NCBI GenBank assembly: GCA_944341895.1
Contig: CALVMB010000008.1
Coordinates: 1-45,690, forward strand
Direction: 5' to 3'
Source: an uncultured Clostridia bacterium
GTDB lineage: Bacteria; Bacillota; Clostridia; Christensenellales; Borkfalkiaceae
DNA: 45,690 nt
The position numbers and the translations under genes were made by a program. The notes under the pieces are model-generated. The model was not told where the DNA came from. It ran no database searches and saw nothing but the letters and a program-made list of their open reading frames with translations. Shown here one piece after another: positions 33,865 to 42,123 of this stretch (positions are counted from its first letter, which is position 1; each line of letters opens with the position of its first letter).

Positions 33865-34037
33865 CCGTCATTTTCGCCGCCCGCGGCGGCGAAACAAGGA
33901 CGGAAACTTTGCGCCGAAGGCGGGACTGCCGACCCGAAGAAATGATTTTTTCGGGCAGGCGATGCGCGCTTTTTTGCCTCTTTTCGGCAAAAGGCGCCGT
34001 ATTTTTTGCGCGCGGCTGTGATAGGATAAACAAAAAA

Positions 34038-36380
34038 ATGGCGGCGGTTGCCGCGCGGTGCGATATGGCGGACAGATTTCGGTTTCGGTACAACTACGGG
34101 GCGGTGCTCTTTTACTTCGCCCTATTTTTAGGCATGCTCCTGATGAACTTCACCATGGACGCGTTCGAGCCATTTTCGCTGGCGCTGTACGCGGCGGCGA
34201 TGGCGTGCGGCCTGCACCCGCTCGTGATGACGGCGCTGTACCTTTTAGCGGGCGGGCTCTCGCTGGCGGCGGTGCCGATCGCCATGGCGATCTTTGCCCT
34301 GCAGGGCGCGTTCCTGGGCACGGCGTTTATGATCTGCCGCATCAAAAAGCGCGCGATGCGCGCGGAGATGGCTCTCTTTTTCGCGCTGGCGCAGGCGCCG
34401 TTCATCGGGCTGTACGGAGAATATATCGGCGGTTATCTGCGCGCGGCGATCGTGGCGGTCACCGTCTTTGCGCTGTGCTTCGTCTGCTTCGGCGCGCTGC
34501 GTTTTGCCCTCTTACGCGCGGGGAAATGCCTGCCTTTGCCCGAAGAACTCGTGTTCTGCGGCGCGGCGGCCGCGGCGGTCGGCATCGGACTGTACAACTG
34601 CGCGGGCACCTATGTGTACGGCGCGCTGGCACTGCTTTCCCTCCTGCTGTGCTGTGCGCTCATCCGCAGCGGAAACGCGGTGTTCTGCGCCTTTGTGCTG
34701 GCGATTCCGCCCGCGATCTGCGAGAGCGTCGCCGCGGCGGCGCCCGCGCTTGTCGCGCCCGCAGCCTACATACTCTATGCCGCGCTGGCGCTCGCCTTTC
34801 TGCGGGCGGGCAAATTCCCCGCCGCGCTCGCCGTATTCTTTGCAGCCGTGGCGGTGCTGTACTTTACGCGCTTTTACAGGGCGGACGACCCTGCCGCCGC
34901 CTTTGCGGGCGCGGAGTTTTACGGCGCGCTCGCCTCGGTGCTGCTGCCCTGCCTGCTCTTTGCCCTGCTGCCCGAACGGGCGACGGACGCGCTCTCGCGC
35001 AAACTGCGGCGGTTCGGCGACAAACCGCTCACCCGCGCGAGCATGGACCGCGACCGCGCGCGCACGGGCGAAAAACTCTTTGAACTTTCGGCGGCGATGC
35101 GCGACGTGGAATGCGCCGTGCGCGCCTTTGACGACGGGGAACAGGAAAGCGGCGCCCTGCTCGGCTTTTTGCGCGAAGAGGTGGAGCGCAATGCCTGCGC
35201 CGAATGCGAAAAGCGGGAGGAATGCCGCAAGAGCGACAACGCCGCCGAACTGGACAAACTCGTCGCAGTGGGGATGAGCAAGGGAAAGGTCAACCTCATC
35301 GACCTGCCTTCGGCGCTGGCAGGCGGGTGCGCCGACCCCGCCGGGGTGCTGTTTTCACTGAACAAACTGCTCGCCGAATACCGACGCCGCGCAGCCGACG
35401 AAGAGAGCGCCGCCAAAGGGCGGACGCTGCTGGCGGAGATCGCCGAGGCGCTTTCCCTGCGCCTGAAAGACATGGCGCTCGAACAGAGCGTGCCCGTCGG
35501 CGTGTACGCCGCCAAAGAAAAGGCACTGCGCACGGCGCTGGGCAAGAGCGGCATCGCCTGCGGCGAGATCCTCGTCTGCGGGCAGGACCCGCAGATCTAC
35601 CTGACCCTTTCCGCCCGCGCGGACGAGCAGACGGCGCGTTCGGCGGTAGAAGAGGCGTTCGGCTTTTCCGCCGTGCTCGCGGCAAAGCGCGCCGTCTCTG
35701 CCGAGCGCATGTGTCTCGTTTACCGCCGCAAGCCGAAATTCGACGCGGCGTTCGGCGTGGCGAGCCGCACCCGCGACGGCGAGGACGCCTGCGGCGACAC
35801 CCATTCGGTGATCAAGATCGACGAACGGACCTTCCTGTGCGCGCTCTCGGACGGCATGGGGAGCGGGAGCGCGGCGCGGCGCATTTCCGACCGCGCGCTG
35901 GGGCTGTTGGAAAGTTTTTACCGCGCAGGCATGCGCGGCGACTGCGCGCTGGGCGCGGTGAACGGACTGCTCGGCGCGGCGCGCGAGGAAAATTTTGCCT
36001 GCATCGACGCGGCGACCGTCGACCTCGACAGCGGGCGCGCGGACATCGTGAAGATCGGCTCCCCGCTCGGATTCCTGCTCACCCCCTCGCAGACGGAGAT
36101 CCTCGAGAGCGATTCCCTGCCCCTCGGCATCCTCGACGAGGTGCACCCCACCGTGCTCACCCGCACCCTCGGCGACGGGGACGTGCTTCTGTTCCTCAGC
36201 GACGGCATCACCGCGGCGTTCGGTTCGAGCACGGACATCGCCGAATTTCTCAGCGGCGCGCACCTCTCCAACCCCCAGACGCTCGCCGACAGCCTCCTGG
36301 ACGCCGCCCTGCGCGCGGCGGGCGGGACGGCGGGCGACGACATGACCGCCGTCGCCGTACGGCTGTTCAAAGCGGCGTGA
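34038..36380 (+). CDS. spoIIE: SpoIIE, stage II sporulation phosphatase
   Basis: 780 aa. Dephosphorylates SpoIIAA to switch on sigma-F in the forespore and works at the asymmetric septum. About ten N-terminal membrane segments (residues ~15-320), a linker with a cysteine cluster (CAECEKREECRK near 395), and a PP2C catalytic domain with LSDGMGSGSAARRIS, IGSPLGFLL, LFLSDGITAAFG and DDMTAVAVRL holding the metal-binding aspartates. ATG at 34038 follows GATAGGAT; an ATG 27 bases later is possible. Direct evidence that the organism sporulates; no Spo0A box was recognised upstream. Confidence 0.93.
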   Translation: MAAVAARCDMADRFRFRYNYGAVLFYFALFLGMLLMNFTMDAFEPFSLALYAAAMACGLHPLVMTALYLLAGGLSLAAVPIAMAIFALQGAFLGTAFMICRIKKRAMRAEMALFFALAQAPFIGLYGEYIGGYLRAAIVAVTVFALCFVCFGALRFALLRAGKCLPLPEELVFCGAAAAAVGIGLYNCAGTYVYGALALLSLLLCCALIRSGNAVFCAFVLAIPPAICESVAAAAPALVAPAAYILYAALALAFLRAGKFPAALAVFFAAVAVLYFTRFYRADDPAAAFAGAEFYGALASVLLPCLLFALLPERATDALSRKLRRFGDKPLTRASMDRDRARTGEKLFELSAAMRDVECAVRAFDDGEQESGALLGFLREEVERNACAECEKREECRKSDNAAELDKLVAVGMSKGKVNLIDLPSALAGGCADPAGVLFSLNKLLAEYRRRAADEESAAKGRTLLAEIAEALSLRLKDMALEQSVPVGVYAAKEKALRTALGKSGIACGEILVCGQDPQIYLTLSARADEQTARSAVEEAFGFSAVLAAKRAVSAERMCLVYRRKPKFDAAFGVASRTRDGEDACGDTHSVIKIDERTFLCALSDGMGSGSAARRISDRALGLLESFYRAGMRGDCALGAVNGLLGAAREENFACIDAATVDLDSGRADIVKIGSPLGFLLTPSQTEILESDSLPLGILDEVHPTVLTRTLGDGDVLLFLSDGITAAFGSSTDIAEFLSGAHLSNPQTLADSLLDAALRAAGGTAGDDMTAVAVRLFKAA

Positions 36381-36695
36381 TGTTTGCAAGCCGCGCCGCC
36401 CGACGCAAACGGTGCGGGCGCGGCGGGCGCGCTCGGAACAAAGTACATATGCGGCGGGCGCGCTCCGCCAAAATGCGGGTGCGGCGCGCTCGGAACTGCG
36501 CGCGGGCAAAGCGGGCGCGCTTCGTCAAAGCGCGGGCGCCGCGGGAACAAAAAAACGGCGCGCATCCCTCCGTTTTGCCGTGCGGCATGGTATACTGGAC
36601 TTGCGGCGGAAAAAACAGCGCGGCGGGGCGCGCAGGGGGCGGACCGATTTGCCCGGTCCCGCCCTTTTTCGCGCCCTGCCGCCGCGGAGGCGGAC
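36381..36695. other. Gene-free 315-bp GC-rich region with degenerate tandem units
   Basis: Between spoIIE and the next gene. From ~36410 to 36555 several imperfect units of about 25-30 bases share a GCGGGCGCGCTCGGAAC-like block. A weak TATACT lies at ~36593, and a terminator-like hairpin at 36635-36669. No protein-like frame. Confidence 0.5.
36635..36669 (+). terminator. Probable terminator after spoIIE
   Basis: Stem GGGCGGACCG with CGGTCCCGCCC (one bulged C) followed by five T. It sits only 26 bases before the next start codon, so it could also attenuate that gene. Confidence 0.6.
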
Positions 36696-37199
36696 ATGGA
36701 CGCGATCCAATTTTTTTCGTTCCTGCGGCAATTCAATGCCGATACGGTGCTCATCGGCGCGGCGGTGTGGGGGCTGAACCTCCTGCTCCGCAAGACGCTG
36801 CTCAAAAAGGCGCCCGAAAAGGCGATGACCTTTCTGCCCTTTGCGCTGGGCGCCCTGCTGTGCGCGGCGTATGCCGCCGCGACGGGCGGGTTCGCGGGGC
36901 AAAGCGTCGGGGAAGGGCTGGCGCAGGCGGCGGCGCAGGGGATCACCTGCGGGTCGCTGGCGACGGTCATCCGCGTCGTCGGAGAACAGTTTTTCCGCGG
37001 AAAAGCGGAGGACACCAAGACGGCGTGCGCCAAGGCGCTGCTCGAAGAATACCGCGCGCTGACCGATGAAGAAGCGCGCGCGCTCGCAGAGGCGGCGGAG
37101 ACGGACGAAGAGCGGACACGGGCGCTGCTGCGGGAGTACGCGGGCGAGGCGGAGCCTCTGCTCTATCCCCTGCTCGTGCGCACACTGCGCATCGTATGA
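36696..37199 (+). CDS. Unknown small membrane protein
   Basis: 167 aa, not recognised. Two hydrophobic segments, about residues 15-31 (TVLIGAAVWGLNLLL) and 43-60 (FLPFALGALLCAAYAAA), then a weaker one near 80-95 (AAAQGITCGSLATVIRVVG) and a charged Ala/Glu-rich helical tail. ATG at 36696 with GCGGAGGCGGAC upstream. Flanked by terminators and placed between spoIIE and gerA, so a sporulation or spore-envelope role is possible but unproven. Confidence 0.7.
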   Translation: MDAIQFFSFLRQFNADTVLIGAAVWGLNLLLRKTLLKKAPEKAMTFLPFALGALLCAAYAAATGGFAGQSVGEGLAQAAAQGITCGSLATVIRVVGEQFFRGKAEDTKTACAKALLEEYRALTDEEARALAEAAETDEERTRALLREYAGEAEPLLYPLLVRTLRIV

Positions 37200-37224
37200 C
37201 GTATTCGGGAACGAACGCACGCGG

Positions 37225-37259
37225 CGCGGCGCCTGCTTTTGCAGGCGCCGCGTTTTTTT
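37225..37259 (+). terminator. Strong terminator between the unknown protein and gerA
   Basis: Perfect 12-bp stem CGCGGCGCCTGC / GCAGGCGCCGCG with a TTTT loop and seven T. Confidence 0.92.
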
Positions 37260-37319
37260 GCGTCCGAAAGACGCAAGTCCGTTTTTGCGAAGGCGGGCGC
37301 TTTTGCGAGCGGGCGGGGT

Positions 37320-38831
37320 ATGTTCGCCGCCAAACTGCACAAACTCGGGGATGTGAAAGAGACAAGCAAACAACGGTTCGGAAGCGAACTGCAAGCCAAC
37401 CTGCACGCCGTCAAGGAAGTGCTCGCCGCCGAGGACGTACTCGTGCACGAATTTTTTGCGGGAGACGGTACGCGCTGTGCCGCCGTATACGCGGACGGGA
37501 TCACCGACAAAGCCGCGCTCGGCGAACTGGTCATCCTGCCGCTCACCCGCCGCCACGCGCCCGCGGACGCACGGCAGGTGTGCGCCTGCCTGTGTTTTCC
37601 CGAGACGCGGCTCGCGCCCGACGCCGAAACGGCGGCGGGCGAAGTGCTCGCGGGCAACCCCGCGCTGTTTGTGGACGGGGTGGACGGCGCCGTGATCTGC
37701 GGCACCAAACTCGTCGCCGCGCGCGCCGTGACCGAGCCGCAGACTTCCGTCACCGTCAAGGGACCGCGCGAAGGGTTCGTCGAGGACATCAAGACGAACA
37801 TGGGACTCATCCGCAAGCGGATCAAGACGCCGTCGCTTCGGTTCGAAGTGCTGGAAGCGGGCAGACAGAGCCACACCGCCGTGTGTATCGCCTACATCGA
37901 AGGCATCGCGGACAAGACGGTCATTCAAAGCGTGCGCGGGCGCATCGCCGCCATCGACATCGACAACGTGCCCGATTCCTCGTACATCTCCAAATTTCTG
38001 ATGCCGCGGCCGCATTCGCTGTTCAAGCAGGTGGGCACCACCGAAAAGCCGGACATCCTGTGCGCCAAGATCGCCGAAGGGCGGGTGGCGGTGCTTTCGG
38101 ACGGTTCGCCCATCGCGCTCACCCTGCCATACATGCTGGAAGAAGACTTTCAGAGTTCGCAGGACTATTTCGTCTCCCCCTACCGCGCTACGGTCTCGCG
38201 CCTGCTGCGGCTGTTCGCCGTTTTGCTCTCGGTGTTTTTGCCCGCCTTTTACGTGGCGGCGCAACTGTTCAAACTGCGCCTTTTGCCCTTTGCGCTGCTG
38301 CTGACCATTTCGGGCGGCATCCAGGGCATCCCGCTCTCGCCGGGGCTGGAAATGTTTTTTTTGCTCATCGTTCTGGAGATCCTCATCGAGGCGAGCGTGC
38401 GCATGCCCAAATACGTGGCGCTGGCGCTGTCCGTCATCGGCGCGCTCGTGCTCGGCGATACGGCGGTCAAAGCGGGGCTGGTATCCTCGCCCGCCATCAT
38501 CATCGTCGCGCTTTCGGGGATTTCCGCATACACCGTGCCCGACCTGGCGGGGACGGTCTCCGTCGTGCGCATCGTGTATATTCTCGTGGCGGGCAGCCTC
38601 GGGCCGTACGGCATCCTGTTGCTGACGGCACTGCTTTTGTATTACCTGATCGGTTCGGACGGGTACGGCGTGCCCCTGCTGGCGCCCTTTGCGCCGCTCA
38701 TCCGCCGCGACCTGCGCGACGCGCTGTACAAGGCGAACATCCGCGACCTGGACAAACGCCCCGCCGTGCTCGGGAGCAGGAACCAAACCCGCCTGCGCAC
38801 CCGAAAAAACAAGGAGAACGCCCATGGATAA
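37320..38831 (+). CDS. gerA: GerA-family germinant receptor A subunit
   Basis: 503 aa. Inner-membrane spore receptor subunit. A soluble N-terminal domain (to residue ~280) with KGPREGFVEDIKTNMGLIRK and SLRFEVLEAGRQSHTAVCIA, followed by about five membrane segments with the family block SVFLPAFYVAAQLF and PYGILLLTALLLYYLIGSDG. ATG at 37320; an upstream start at 37239 lies within the terminator and is rejected. Overlaps gerB by 8 bases. Ligand unknown. Confidence 0.92.
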   Translation: MFAAKLHKLGDVKETSKQRFGSELQANLHAVKEVLAAEDVLVHEFFAGDGTRCAAVYADGITDKAALGELVILPLTRRHAPADARQVCACLCFPETRLAPDAETAAGEVLAGNPALFVDGVDGAVICGTKLVAARAVTEPQTSVTVKGPREGFVEDIKTNMGLIRKRIKTPSLRFEVLEAGRQSHTAVCIAYIEGIADKTVIQSVRGRIAAIDIDNVPDSSYISKFLMPRPHSLFKQVGTTEKPDILCAKIAEGRVAVLSDGSPIALTLPYMLEEDFQSSQDYFVSPYRATVSRLLRLFAVLLSVFLPAFYVAAQLFKLRLLPFALLLTISGGIQGIPLSPGLEMFFLLIVLEILIEASVRMPKYVALALSVIGALVLGDTAVKAGLVSSPAIIIVALSGISAYTVPDLAGTVSVVRIVYILVAGSLGPYGILLLTALLLYYLIGSDGYGVPLLAPFAPLIRRDLRDALYKANIRDLDKRPAVLGSRNQTRLRTRKNKENAHG

Positions 38832-39912
38832 CATCAAACTGCGGCAGATCTGCTTTTATTTTGCGTGCATGATGCCCGCCGCCAAACTGCTCATCTACCC
38901 CGCGACGCTCGCCTATGACACGAAAAACGATCTCCTGCTCGCCGCGGGGCTGAACTTTGCTGCGCAGGTGCTCGTGCTCGGCGCGGTGCTGTGGCTTTCC
39001 GCGCGCACCGACCGCACCTTTTTTGCGTTGCTGGAAGGCGCGTTCGGCCGCCTGTGCGCGCGCATCGTCTACTGCCTGTGCGCCGCGTTCTTTCTGTTTT
39101 CGGCGCTCTTTCCCATGCTCGAACAGCGGGTGTTCGTGACGCAGGTGCTGTACGAAAACGTGCCATCCGTGCTCGTCTATACCCCGTTTTTTGCGGTGAG
39201 TTTCTTTGCCTGCCTGCAAGGGCTCAGGACGCTGGGCAGAGCGGCGGACGTGGCGATGCCGCTGTTTGCCGTCTCCTTCGTCGCGCTCATCCTGCTGGCA
39301 GCGCCGCATGCCGATTTCGGCGCGCTGCTACCCGTGGGAAGGACGGGCGCGGGCATCTTCCGCGGCGCGCTGTTCGGCGTGCACCGCTTTGCCGATTGCC
39401 TGTATCCGCTCTTTTTCCTCGGGCATTTCCGCAGGGAAAAGAAAACGGCGGGCAAGGTGCTTGCCGCCTTTGCGGCAGGCGCGCTCGCCGTGCTGGTGTT
39501 CCTTGCCGTGTTTTACGGGATCTTTGAAGACATCGCCGTCCTGCGCCAGAACTCGATCGCGCACATTTCCAAATACACGACTTCGTTCACCTCGCTGGGG
39601 CGCATCGATTTTCTGTTCATCTTCGCGCTGACGGTGGTGCAGATCTTCTGCCTGTGCGTGCCCGTGCAACTGTGCGTGCACTGCCTGCGCACCGCCCTGC
39701 CGCGCGTTCATCCGCTCTTTTTTGCGGCGGCCGCGAACGGCGCCCTGCTGACGGCGGTCCTGCTGCTCAACGATACCTTTCTCGAAGTGCAGCAGTTGTT
39801 CACGCAGAAACTGTGGGCGGTCTTTCTCGTGTTCGCCTACCTTCTGCCCCTCGCCGCGCTGCCGCTGTGCGCCGCGAAAAAAAACAAAAAGCGGGAGGAC
39901 GGCGATGGTTAA
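38824..39912 (+). CDS. gerB: GerB-family germinant receptor B subunit
   Basis: 362 aa. Amino-acid-permease-like integral membrane subunit with about ten hydrophobic segments. Opening MDNIKLRQICFYFACMMPAA and the LIYPATLAYDTKND segment agree with the family, and ELQQLF-like FLEVQQLFTQKLW lies near the end. AAGGAGAACGCCC precedes the ATG. It overlaps gerA and gerC by 8 bases each, so translational coupling is expected. Confidence 0.87.
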   Translation: MDNIKLRQICFYFACMMPAAKLLIYPATLAYDTKNDLLLAAGLNFAAQVLVLGAVLWLSARTDRTFFALLEGAFGRLCARIVYCLCAAFFLFSALFPMLEQRVFVTQVLYENVPSVLVYTPFFAVSFFACLQGLRTLGRAADVAMPLFAVSFVALILLAAPHADFGALLPVGRTGAGIFRGALFGVHRFADCLYPLFFLGHFRREKKTAGKVLAAFAAGALAVLVFLAVFYGIFEDIAVLRQNSIAHISKYTTSFTSLGRIDFLFIFALTVVQIFCLCVPVQLCVHCLRTALPRVHPLFFAAAANGALLTAVLLLNDTFLEVQQLFTQKLWAVFLVFAYLLPLAALPLCAAKKNKKREDGDG

Positions 39913-41155
39913 GTTGCGGACGCGCATATTCGTCATTGCGGCGGCGTTGTTGTTCCTGCTCTTTTTCTCCAACGATTTCGGGCTCATCGACATCCAGAAA
40001 ACGGCGATCGTGGCGGCGATCGGCATCGATGCGGGAAGCGAGGAAGGAAAACTGAACGTGACCGCACAGATCGCCGTACCCGACGCGAGCGGCGCGGGCA
40101 AAGCGGGCAACGTGACGGCGGAAAACACCCGCACGGTGAGCGAGGCGATGGCACAGATCAACCGCAAGACGGGCTGGTACCCCACCCTCGTGCACTGCCG
40201 CCTGGTCATGCTCGGCGAGGCGACGGCGGAGCGGGACGTGTTCGAATTCCTCAACTACTTCCTGCGCAGTGAATTTGTGGAAGATTCCTGCCTGATCGCC
40301 GTATGCAAAGGCACGGCGCAGGAACTGTTTTCCTCGCAGTCGCCCATCGGCGAACTGACCGCCATCGCCGTTTCCAAGGTATTGTCGTCGGAGGCGGAAA
40401 AAACGGGGCTCGTCTGCGTGACCAACCTGCGCGACTTTGCCAAAGGGTATTTTTCGCCCGCCGCGAGCGGATACCTGCCCCTCGTCGCCCTGCGCAAGGA
40501 AGCGGAAAGCGGCGGCCAGGGCGGAACGGCACAGGGCACGGCGGCCAGGGAGCAAGGTGCGCCCGCCGTCCTCGCGGCGGACATCCTGCCCGCCGCGGCA
40601 AGCGACCCCGCCGCGCAGAGCGGGGGCGACAACGCCGCCGACGTGTTCGACGCGTCGCAGACCATGCTCTTTTACCGCGGAAAGCGCGCCGCCGTGCTGG
40701 ACGCGGGCGAGACGCTCGCCTTCAACCTGACCGAGACCTCCACCGACTTTGCCTACGGGGAAGTGACCATCGAACAGGACGGCGCGCCCGTGACTTATTC
40801 GCTCAAGATCCGCATCCGCAAAAAGAAAGTTTCGCTGGACTTTCAGGACGGGAAACCGGTCCTGACCTTCCGCGTGCGCGCCAACGCGCAGATCGCGGAC
40901 GACTCCCGCGCGGACGGGATCGTGGACATCGCCAAGACGGCGTTCGTCCCCGAACCGGTGCTGCGCGCCGCCGAAGAAGCCCTGCGCGTGCGGCTGGACG
41001 CCGTTTTGGAAACGACGCGCGAAAGCGGATGCGACCTGTTCGGCGTGCGGCAGAAACTGCACCGCCGCCACCCGCGCTACGAGCGCGAATACGCCGAGAC
41101 CGTCCTGCGAGACTGCGCGATCGCCTACGACATCGCGTTCGACACCCTGCAATGA
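39905..41155 (+). CDS. gerC: GerC-family germinant receptor C subunit without a lipobox
   Basis: 416 aa. Normal GerC is a lipoprotein with a Cys-Trp-Asp start after the signal sequence, then an AIVTGIGID-like block. Here the hydrophobic N-terminus (RIFVIAAALLFLLFF) leads to SNDFGLIDIQKTAIVAAIGID: the block is present but the lipobox Cys is replaced and no other Cys is near. The protein is probably held by an uncleaved N-terminal helix. Later domains match GerC (NRKTGWYPTLVHCRLVMLGE, FEFLNYFLRSEFVEDSCLIA). An Ala/Gly-rich insertion lies near residues 200-235. Start follows GGGAGGACGGCG. Confidence 0.85.
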   Translation: MVKLRTRIFVIAAALLFLLFFSNDFGLIDIQKTAIVAAIGIDAGSEEGKLNVTAQIAVPDASGAGKAGNVTAENTRTVSEAMAQINRKTGWYPTLVHCRLVMLGEATAERDVFEFLNYFLRSEFVEDSCLIAVCKGTAQELFSSQSPIGELTAIAVSKVLSSEAEKTGLVCVTNLRDFAKGYFSPAASGYLPLVALRKEAESGGQGGTAQGTAAREQGAPAVLAADILPAAASDPAAQSGGDNAADVFDASQTMLFYRGKRAAVLDAGETLAFNLTETSTDFAYGEVTIEQDGAPVTYSLKIRIRKKKVSLDFQDGKPVLTFRVRANAQIADDSRADGIVDIAKTAFVPEPVLRAAEEALRVRLDAVLETTRESGCDLFGVRQKLHRRHPRYEREYAETVLRDCAIAYDIAFDTLQ

Positions 41156-41203: not shown

Positions 41204-41231
41204 TTGACAAGTGCAAAAAAAGTGTTATAAT
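41204..41231 (+). promoter_or_regulatory. Strong sigma-A promoter of the orphan RNA gene
   Basis: TTGACA (41204-41209), 16-bp spacer, TATAAT (41226-41231). Both hexamers are perfect. Start expected near 41238. No ribosome site followed by a credible gene downstream. Confidence 0.9.
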
Positions 41232-41237
41232 AGAGGT

Positions 41238-41752
41238 ACCAAAGGGAAAAATCCAAGATTTCCCGCGGTACAACTCAAAGCCAGCGAAGCGCGCGCCAGC
41301 GTCCTTCCTCCCATTCGGTTGCGGCGGTTTCCACCGGAAGTGTGCACAGGAACATCGCCGTAAGGGAACAAGGTTCGGGTGAAAAGGTTTTCACGCGGGG
41401 CGAAGGCGCGGGGTCGGCTCCCCTCTCACACCACACGTTGCCTGTCGGAAATGATAGCAAGAACGAGAGAGGCCGAGGCGGTCCGGCGGAACGGGCGAGG
41501 GAGGTACTGTATGTACAAGTCCGATCTTAGGAAACTTGCGTGAACGGAGGGCGGTCCGATGTACATGTTTGGAAAGGGAACCGTAAAATAAGATCGTTCC
41601 GTTTTGGCGGATCGCCGAATGCGCTGCAGGCAGGGAGCATCCGCGCCGATTATGGTGATTTTGGAAAGAGATCTTGAGGGGCGTTCCCCTACAACTTCAT
41701 AATTCGTTACTCTCGCCCGCGGCGCCGTACGGCTCTGCGGGCGTTCCTTTTT
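41238..41752 (+). ncRNA. Candidate large structured non-coding RNA, about 510 nt, family unknown
   Basis: Starts at a consensus promoter and ends at an intrinsic terminator, with no protein-like frame. Base-pairing seen by eye: a 5' hairpin with GGGAAA/TTTCCC (41244-41264); CTTCC/GGAAG (41304-41340); GTGAAAA/TTTTCAC (41379-41394); a GGGG-TCGG-CTCCCC hairpin near 41408; an 8-bp long-range pairing CGATCTTA/TAAGATCG (41522-41529 with 41589-41596) closing a ~60-nt domain; GGCG-GAT-CGCC (41607-41617); AGGGG-CGTT-CCCCT (~41677-41690). Purine-rich unpaired segments such as GGAAAC and GGAAAGGGAACC alternate with stems, as in ornate large RNAs. It does not show the RNase P, tmRNA, SRP or 6S signatures I know. 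Possible families to compare: OLE, ROOL, GOLLD and similar. Confidence 0.75.
41714..41752 (+). terminator. Terminator of the orphan RNA gene
   Basis: Stem CGCCCGC / GCGGGCG (41714-41743) with an inner GCC/GGC helix, followed by TTCCTTTTT. Confidence 0.8.
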
Positions 41753-42009
41753 GCGCGAAAACAAACGGTGCTTCCTGCACAAATGCGTGCGTGCCATGCG
41801 GTTTTGTGCAAAGCGAAATGCCCCTTTCGCACATGCGCCTGCCCGCGGGCGTCTCTTTTTGCGCGACCTCCGCAACGACGTGCCTGCGGCTCTTCGTCTG
41901 CGCCAAATGCGGCGAGATGTATCCATCCGCCGACCGCATGCGCCTGCCCGCATTGATCTGCATATGACACACCGGATGCTGTCGTATGGCTCCGCATGCA
42001 TCGCACCGC

Positions 42010-42050
42010 GCAAACAAAGACGCCCGCGGCGCCGCATGGCGCCGCGGGCG
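42010..42050 (-). terminator. Probable terminator of the vor/kor operon
   Basis: Perfect 13-bp stem CGCCCGCGGCGCC / GGCGCCGCGGGCG with a four-base loop (42021-42050); on the minus strand it runs into TCTTTGTTTG. About 70 bp after the last gene. Confidence 0.65.
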
Positions 42051-42123
42051 TTACCGCCTCTGCGCGTCGGGATCGCGCGCGGAGGGCACGTCGGCAGGAA
42101 AAGGCGTTGCCTTTCCGCTTAAT

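Follow-up and report, generated by a model that had tools for sequence, protein, structure and literature searches.

The window analyzed here, i.e. the whole stretch of DNA under study, is 45,690 nt in length and derives from an uncultured Clostridia bacterium. A sequence-only reading of positions 41204–41752 had proposed an orphan RNA gene that is structured, has a promoter and a terminator of its own, differs from RNase P and tmRNA, and contains no credible gene. The questions raised by this locus are whether such an RNA is present and whether it is without coding sequence. The orphan RNA gene with these two signals is upheld by the comparisons given below. The absence of a gene is not: two short open reading frames, each with a Shine-Dalgarno sequence, are found in the best conserved stretch at 30/30 loci. 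A real structured RNA that carries tandem mini-ORFs and represents a new family is highly probable. The best explanation as a whole, to which we give a probability of about 60%, is that the RNA belongs to a family not described before, whose members stand alone, are structured, have strong promoters and would also be translated, with ribosomes engaged at the tandem mini-ORFs.

The RNA unit and its fold

The features of the unit outside the mini-ORFs are as follows (window coordinates; “both-sided change” denotes a pair in which both positions have changed).

41204–41231, plus strand: promoter TTGACA-16-TATAAT with extended −10 (TGnTATAAT); 12/12 consensus positions
41238–41752, plus strand: whole transcribed unit, start and end placed from the promoter and terminator; 35/40 same-genus genomes; 85-pair consensus structure
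41245–41264, plus strand: 5′ hairpin of 6 pairs; 89.4% of cells paired; both-sided change in 3 pairs
41266–41271, plus strand: CGGUAC, possible partner of GUACUG at 41504–41509 (between the first Shine-Dalgarno sequence and first AUG); pairable in 30/30, invariant
41300–41402, plus strand: leader domain with helices 41300–41306/41396–41402 (both-sided change in 7/7 pairs, 77.5% of cells paired) and 41318–41332/41349–41364 (9/14 pairs, 84.4%)
41576–41581, plus strand: strand within ORF2 that pairs with 41684–41689; both-sided change in 4/6 pairs, 91.7% of cells paired
41607–41644, plus strand: hairpin between ORF2 and the 3′ box; outer helix with both-sided change in 4/5 pairs (95.3% of cells), inner helix 3/3 (80.8%)
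41691–41702, plus strand: 3′ box, consensus ACAACUGAAUA, here ACAACTTCATAA; several invariant columns
41715–41752, plus strand: intrinsic terminator hairpin and T tail; main stem with 9/9 pairs showing a both-sided change in at least one relative, 93.9% of cells paired

The unit would be transcribed from a sigma-A promoter, as had been claimed; the match to the consensus is complete and a TGn extension is present in addition. Three promoter-like sites in total are found within 3 kb, where 0.6 are expected, and the remaining two match at 9/12 positions. The exact promoter is present in 28/30 same-genus units as cut, and TGnTATAAT in 30/30; the two units without the exact match (L025 and L029) were cut such that they begin inside the promoter. 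TTGAC together with TATAAT is found in 38/47 units from other groups, a count that is partly by construction, because a looser promoter-like match defined where these units start.

At the other end, the hairpin at positions 41715–41742 is followed by T residues and makes a plausible terminator, in keeping with the original proposal. The stem recurs in relatives, where both-sided changes are seen. The consensus terminator scan by itself is at chance level (7 found, 3.8 ± 2.4 expected).

The predicted fold of the RNA is better than 98/100 shuffles (z = −2.2). The consensus structure from 30 same-genus sequences has 85 pairs, and 89.1% of cells pair; both-sided change is seen in 45 pairs and 154 cells. 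This compares with 23.7 ± 2.8 pairs and 53.9 cells in the shuffle control, and with a maximum of 31 pairs, 74 cells and 51.9% paired in the slid-partner control, all counts being for a structure scored on the alignment from which it was derived. The both-sided support is located in the leader, the 3′ half and the terminator. In the mini-ORF core the helices (8–11 of the full structure) vary little, with both-sided change in none of them, and the core alignment by itself gives 3 predicted pairs, none with such a change. The possible helix 41266–41271/41504–41509 yields no covariation evidence, because it is invariant in 30/30. An 8-bp long-range pairing that had been proposed between 41522–41529 and 41589–41596 does not survive the comparison: 113/240 cells pair, and at least 7 of the 8 pairs form in 1/30 sequences. 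The structured nature of the RNA is borne out by the shuffles and by the compensating changes in relatives.

Blast searches (blastn) of 101 genomes show the unit in 34/40 same-genus genomes, its own included; outside the genus they yield one 33-base match, to the promoter alone, in one other genus. A single copy is found in the window's own genome, which is 81.7% complete. The longest run of conserved bases is 41500–41596, and the leader is not the best kept part. Judged by its perfect promoter, its presence in 35/40 genomes of the genus and the 45/85 pairs that change on both sides, the RNA unit is real.

A search of the whole window against Rfam 15 yields no family at the gathering score. 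With the cutoff relaxed to E ≤ 10, 12 sub-threshold matches surround the unit, the best with E = 0.003 at 41912–42050, and none lies within 41204–41752. The same search at the gathering score gives no match to the RNA unit in 47 loci (16 of the same genus, own locus included, 18 of a second genus of the family, termed g10, and 13 others); the matches in the 13 others, a tRNA and two glycine riboswitch matches, are apart from the RNA. (Tandem glycine riboswitch matches occur at L091:1034–1191, near a relative of the RNA in genus g7.) The OLE, ROOL, GOLLD and raiA families were presumably part of the library searched. The likeness to OLE, ROOL and GOLLD that the sequence-only reading suggested was based on size and ornateness, and no Rfam model adds to it.

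The size and the strong promoter would also suit a known Rfam RNA in divergent form, such as RNase P or tmRNA, and the RNase P models (RF00010/RF00011) match nothing in the window or in its own incomplete genome. RNase P class A is, however, found at other places in 13/14 chosen relatives. The tmRNA (RF00023) is not detected in the window by either the family model or ARAGORN, and is found at other places in 14/14 of these relatives. We consider a known RNA of this kind exceedingly improbable.

Tandem mini-ORFs in the conserved core

The best conserved stretch displays the order GGAGG-AUG-ORF1-stop-GGAGG-AUG-ORF2-stop, with the following components.

41500–41504, plus strand: Shine-Dalgarno sequence GGAGG of ORF1; GAGGTACTG invariant in 30/30
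41511–41543, plus strand: mini-ORF 1, ATG to TGA, MYKSDLRKLA; open reading frame in 30/30 loci; 0/1000 column permutations as protein-like
41546–41550, plus strand: Shine-Dalgarno sequence GGAGG of ORF2, which opens the module GGA(n)CCRAUGNAC; 98 modules in 77 units, 0 in 668,381 flanking bases
41559–41591, plus strand: mini-ORF 2, ATG to TAA, MYMFGKGTVK; in 30/30 loci; 8/1000 permutations as good

The coding test consisted of column permutations. L030 was excluded for ORF1 and L023 for ORF2, both for indels, which left 20 and 28 distinct rows, respectively. With 0/1000 permutations as good for ORF1 and 8/1000 for ORF2, ORF1 has a protein-like signature in the genus and ORF2 a weak one.

One alternative is that the locus is a peptide gene, the decapeptides being its products (a signal, a modulator, or micropeptides that bind protein) and the structured leader controlling no more than their translation. 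ORF1 within the genus speaks for it: the amino acids are kept, third positions and synonymous first positions vary, and one-codon insertions are in frame. Across the 30 loci ORF1 occurs as close variants, with moved stops and with all three stop codons in use; in L009 the stop is lost and the frame continues into ORF2. A different property is displayed by ORF2, whose second codon is TAC in 30/30 and never the synonymous TAT. This points to a second alternative, an RNA that is non-coding, in which GGA(n)CCRAUGNAC would bind RNA or protein and no ribosome would start at the AUGs. The both-sided changes elsewhere in the RNA are also in its favor; the coding signal of ORF1 in the genus is not.

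Longer open reading frames were considered as well. A 203-aa frame on the minus strand (41426–42037) has matches in 28/29 relatives, and seems to mirror the conservation of the RNA, because 16 of the 28 matches hold internal stops. A 62-aa plus-strand frame (41342–41530) has no match in 29 relatives and holds stops in 16/30. A 45-aa plus-strand frame (41540–41677) has matches in 11/29, 8 of them with stops, and stops in 26/30. A 50-aa plus-strand frame (41211–41363) has partial matches in 9/29 relatives, free of stops. A third mini-ORF that would begin at ATTATGG near 41652 is broken in many relatives, as judged by eye. A conserved protein frame had been named as something that would refute the RNA gene. 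The first three of these longer frames are interrupted by stops in relatives; mini-ORF 1 is protein-like in the genus and mini-ORF 2 weakly so.

The putative start module and its distribution

A model built on the core (R1) was used to search 398 genomes of the family. At E ≤ 0.1 it matches 112/398 genomes, among them 35/40 of the same genus; outside the genus there are 65 in g10 and 12 in g8, g3, g14, g18, g7 and g5. As far as the sequences compared go, much of the layout is kept in these seven other genera. It is apparently present also in two other families of the order, termed f13 and f9, and possibly in one family outside the order (f82). The shared layout consists of a strong promoter, GGA(n)CCRAUGNAC modules that open mini-ORFs of mostly 2–14 codons, a ACAACUGAAUA-like box and a terminator.

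In g10, 23 loci were inspected out of the 65 matching genomes. They show the same type of promoter, followed by ORF1 and ORF2 (mostly MYxxxxGAEK-like), and 21/23 have a further CCRATG mini-ORF upstream (MDRKA, MN, MNR, MHN, MHK etc.). The consensus fold from the g10 alignment is weak, with 24 pairs, 8 of them showing both-sided change in an uncontrolled count. Inspection by eye shows that AUG1 is often preceded by CAUAUCG-GGAGGUACAA-CGAUAUG or CAUAACG-GGAGGUACAA-CGUUAUG, i.e. a hairpin whose loop holds the ribosome site; the automatic consensus fold did not pick this hairpin.

The arrays of mini-ORFs in relatives apparently comprise two to five or more, the fullest case being in g3 with at least five. 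Those in g18 read MQ, MK, MKKIYGRKIS and MAHILKG. Outside the family, L125 and L132 (f13) carry repeated modules with MY* or MF*, and L130 (f9) has one module and the 3′ box. Outside the order, L164 and L166 (f82) have about four mini-ORFs, a CCAAUGUAC module and a promoter whose −10 is imperfect; the 3′ box was not found there by pattern, and f82 is the least certain extension of the family.

The 3′-box pattern, sought over the whole unit, is found in 29/30 same-genus units (the exception is the window), in 7/23 of g10 and in 21/24 of the others. An ACAAC-GAA-like box is visible in the alignment at many g10 loci, and it is the strict pattern that is confined to 7/23. We take ACAACUGAAUA to resemble sequences beside boxA in the rRNA leaders of Firmicutes. 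A search of 14 genomes for a boxA-type pattern was uninformative, with the pattern present in 1/14.

Searches were extended beyond the family. In the order, 82/396 genomes match at E ≤ 0.05, and the architecture was recognized by eye at 12 of the 16 loci inspected out of 30 returned; among these 12, L130 and L136 have only one module or overlapping modules. In the class, 59/391 genomes match at E ≤ 0.02, and 2/26 new loci inspected, L164 and L166 of one genus, show the architecture; L172 is a lone module with no promoter. In f82 the cutoff E ≤ 0.01 is passed by 3/21 genomes, one of which (L174) has no modules, and in f13, 2/5 genomes match. The majority of weak search matches are probably due to chance. 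Two g8 matches (L081 and L083), where a longer frame follows, were judged false and excluded from the pool described next. L093 (a promoter-only match), L094 (a duplicate piece) and L098–L100 were left out of the analysis.

The module was analyzed in a pool of 77 units: 30 from the same genus (g1), 23 from g10 and 24 others picked by architecture. They contain 114 CCRATG sites with a Shine-Dalgarno sequence, and all 114 reach a stop, 113 within 14 codons and 112 within 13. In shuffles about 50% of CCRATG sites reach a stop within 13 codons, so that early stops are about twice as frequent as expected, which argues against unused AUGs and a non-coding RNA. On the other side, codon 2 is NAC at 102/114 sites (71/83 outside g1), and AC is conserved behind AUGN irrespective of the amino acid encoded; AUGNAC may be kept for recognition and resemble a start in appearance only. 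In its stricter form the module is found 98 times over the 49,405 bases of the units and not once in the flanking bases on both strands; in the window it has a single occurrence over both strands, inside the RNA unit. It should be noted that the module counts are inflated by selection, because the search models hold the last module and unit starts were set at promoter-like matches. Two or more modules are present in 22/77 units, and the further modules are freer of this effect.

A search with a two-module pattern showed both mini-ORFs and the 3′ box in 13/24 named stretches, and gave no matches in viral contigs. It also revealed a clade of rabbit (“Lapin”) MAGs, with 11 loci found by pattern outside the 77 units. 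These have an ORF1 like MTTLHGWGTTQ, an ORF2 like MYHYMIRAENRL, the 3′ box, and a TTGACA whose accompanying −10 is imperfect. Neither ORF is protein-like in this clade: 1754 and 894 of 2000 permutations are as good (6 and 8 distinct rows), and in L148 the ORF2 frame is shifted. Two Bacteroidales MAG contigs, L144 (at two places 4 kb apart) and L143, hold the two-module pattern three times with no promoter or 3′ box, perhaps as an unrelated repeat.

The peptides differ from genus to genus. Since neither ORF is protein-like in the rabbit-MAG clade and the frame of ORF2 is shifted in L148, what persists across groups is the ribosome site, the start, NAC as second codon at CCRATG modules, the early stop and parts of the fold, and not the peptide. 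This tells against a peptide gene and suits a non-coding RNA, with the reservation that the distinct rows of the clade are few. Many upstream mini-ORFs, moreover, have 2–5 codons (MN, MQ, MK, MY, MDRKA), too short for a usual product. A further observation favors a peptide gene: ORF1 of L095 (g10) and the downstream mini-ORF of L164/L166 (f82), from different orders, both start MLKFIS with codons that differ at two sites, by chance or by kinship. Overall we regard a peptide gene as unlikely and a wholly non-coding RNA as distinctly unlikely. A translated structured RNA is the reading preferred here.

The genomic neighbors of the RNA vary. In the window it lies, as was originally described, between the germinant-receptor operon and the oxidoreductase operon, which is convergent; upstream are GerA, a spore permease and GerAC, and SpoIIE is at 33909–36380. 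In the same genus gerC homologues are upstream at 21/30 loci. In g10, gerC is nearby in 20/23 loci and spoIIE in 18/23, and the RNA is between the two in 17/23. Elsewhere the neighbors identified are a Na+/H+ exchanger (two g8 loci), an rpoC-like gene (f9), an MgtE-like gene (one f13 locus), and, in f82, a MatE gene and a choloylglycine hydrolase-family gene. No neighbor gene is constant across genera. The transporters noted among them are MatE and the Na+/H+ exchanger; no peptide exporter was seen among the identified neighbors, a further point against a peptide gene.

Mini-ORFs followed by a terminator resemble leader-peptide attenuators, and a cis-regulatory leader (attenuator or riboswitch) of a neighboring gene was therefore considered. 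The next gene downstream in the window is convergent, and the neighbors elsewhere are ger/spoIIE at many g1 and g10 loci and others in g8, f9, f82 and f13. Such a leader is very improbable. The link with sporulation may be inherited synteny. The RNA adjoins gerABC in the window (33909–41155), and the sporulation/germination cluster is rearranged between genera (L063–L096 compared). A 14-pair G+C-rich hairpin is found at 42020–42051, just past the end of korC (minus strand); it is perhaps the terminator of the kor operon.

Related systems and a possible role

Dual-function RNAs are among the closest known systems. RNAIII is a dual-function RNA about equal in length to the RNA described here. 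Besides base pairing with target mRNAs, the class is marked by conserved structure in a stand-alone unit, which is present here (both-sided changes, promoter, terminator), and by a translated small ORF, for which ORF1 is a candidate because of its protein-like conservation in sequence comparison. VcdRP, SR1 and SgrS are likewise stand-alone transcripts with a small ORF; the present case differs from them in having two or more tandem ORFs (mostly 2–14 codons) and a recurring GGA(n)CCRAUGNAC module. A type I toxin mRNA does not fit, as MYKSDLRKLA and MYMFGKGTVK are short and charged, in contrast to a hydrophobic membrane peptide.

Minigenes, of which lambda bar is one, occur singly in mRNAs or phage DNA. 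Like the RNA here, they (e.g. axe-txe, PMC8708949) have very short ORFs and ribosome sites; in this RNA the mini-ORFs are instead arrayed within a conserved fold. OLE, ROOL and GOLLD are likewise long structured bacterial RNAs (PMC12286853); the present RNA differs in that it matches no Rfam model and has mini-ORFs with Shine-Dalgarno sites. A survey of intergenic motifs (PMC6429828) describes some from Clostridia that encode short peptides, as uORFs beside a main gene or as sORFs; tandem mini-ORFs in a stand-alone folded RNA were not met in the part available. Intergenic RNAs with short ORFs and translated genes of tiny size in Clostridiales are described in that survey and in PMC7324362, and the present RNA was not met in the sections covered. 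A full-text literature search, whose scope left most subscription papers outside, gave no recognizable description of it.

In the mechanism proposed, ribosomes would initiate at the modules, read mostly 2–14 codons and terminate within the RNA. Folding would compete with the entry of ribosomes at two places, the possible long-range helix next to the first ribosome site and the helix formed by ORF2 and the 3′ segment. The conserved activity may then be ribosome engagement, such that the state of translation sets the shape or stability of the RNA, or the RNA draws initiating ribosomes. In the genus, the first decapeptide is additionally constrained in sequence. That ribosome engagement is the core function has, in our estimate, somewhat less than an even chance.

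A more far-reaching proposal, which we put forward tentatively and hold to be rather doubtful, is a new kind of RNA: a folded scaffold with an array of GGA(n)CCRAUGNAC landing modules that would capture or gauge initiating ribosomes, with the start codon and codon 2 serving as a signal in the RNA, mini-ORFs down to two codons and peptides largely incidental, order-wide in Clostridia and perhaps beyond. NAC codons are read by tRNAs that bear queuosine. Sensing of this modification would be one version of the proposal, because codon 2 is NAC at so many of the sites.

Gene callers normally report only ORFs longer than these. The usual annotation would tend to miss such an RNA twice, because its ORFs are below gene-caller length and the RNA has no family model. 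If the reading preferred here is correct, it would add to the Clostridia (partly of the gut, by record titles) an RNA family without a model in Rfam 15 that combines heavy structure with tandem mini-ORFs. It would also offer a natural system for the competition between ribosomes and RNA folding and for the roles of ultra-short ORFs.
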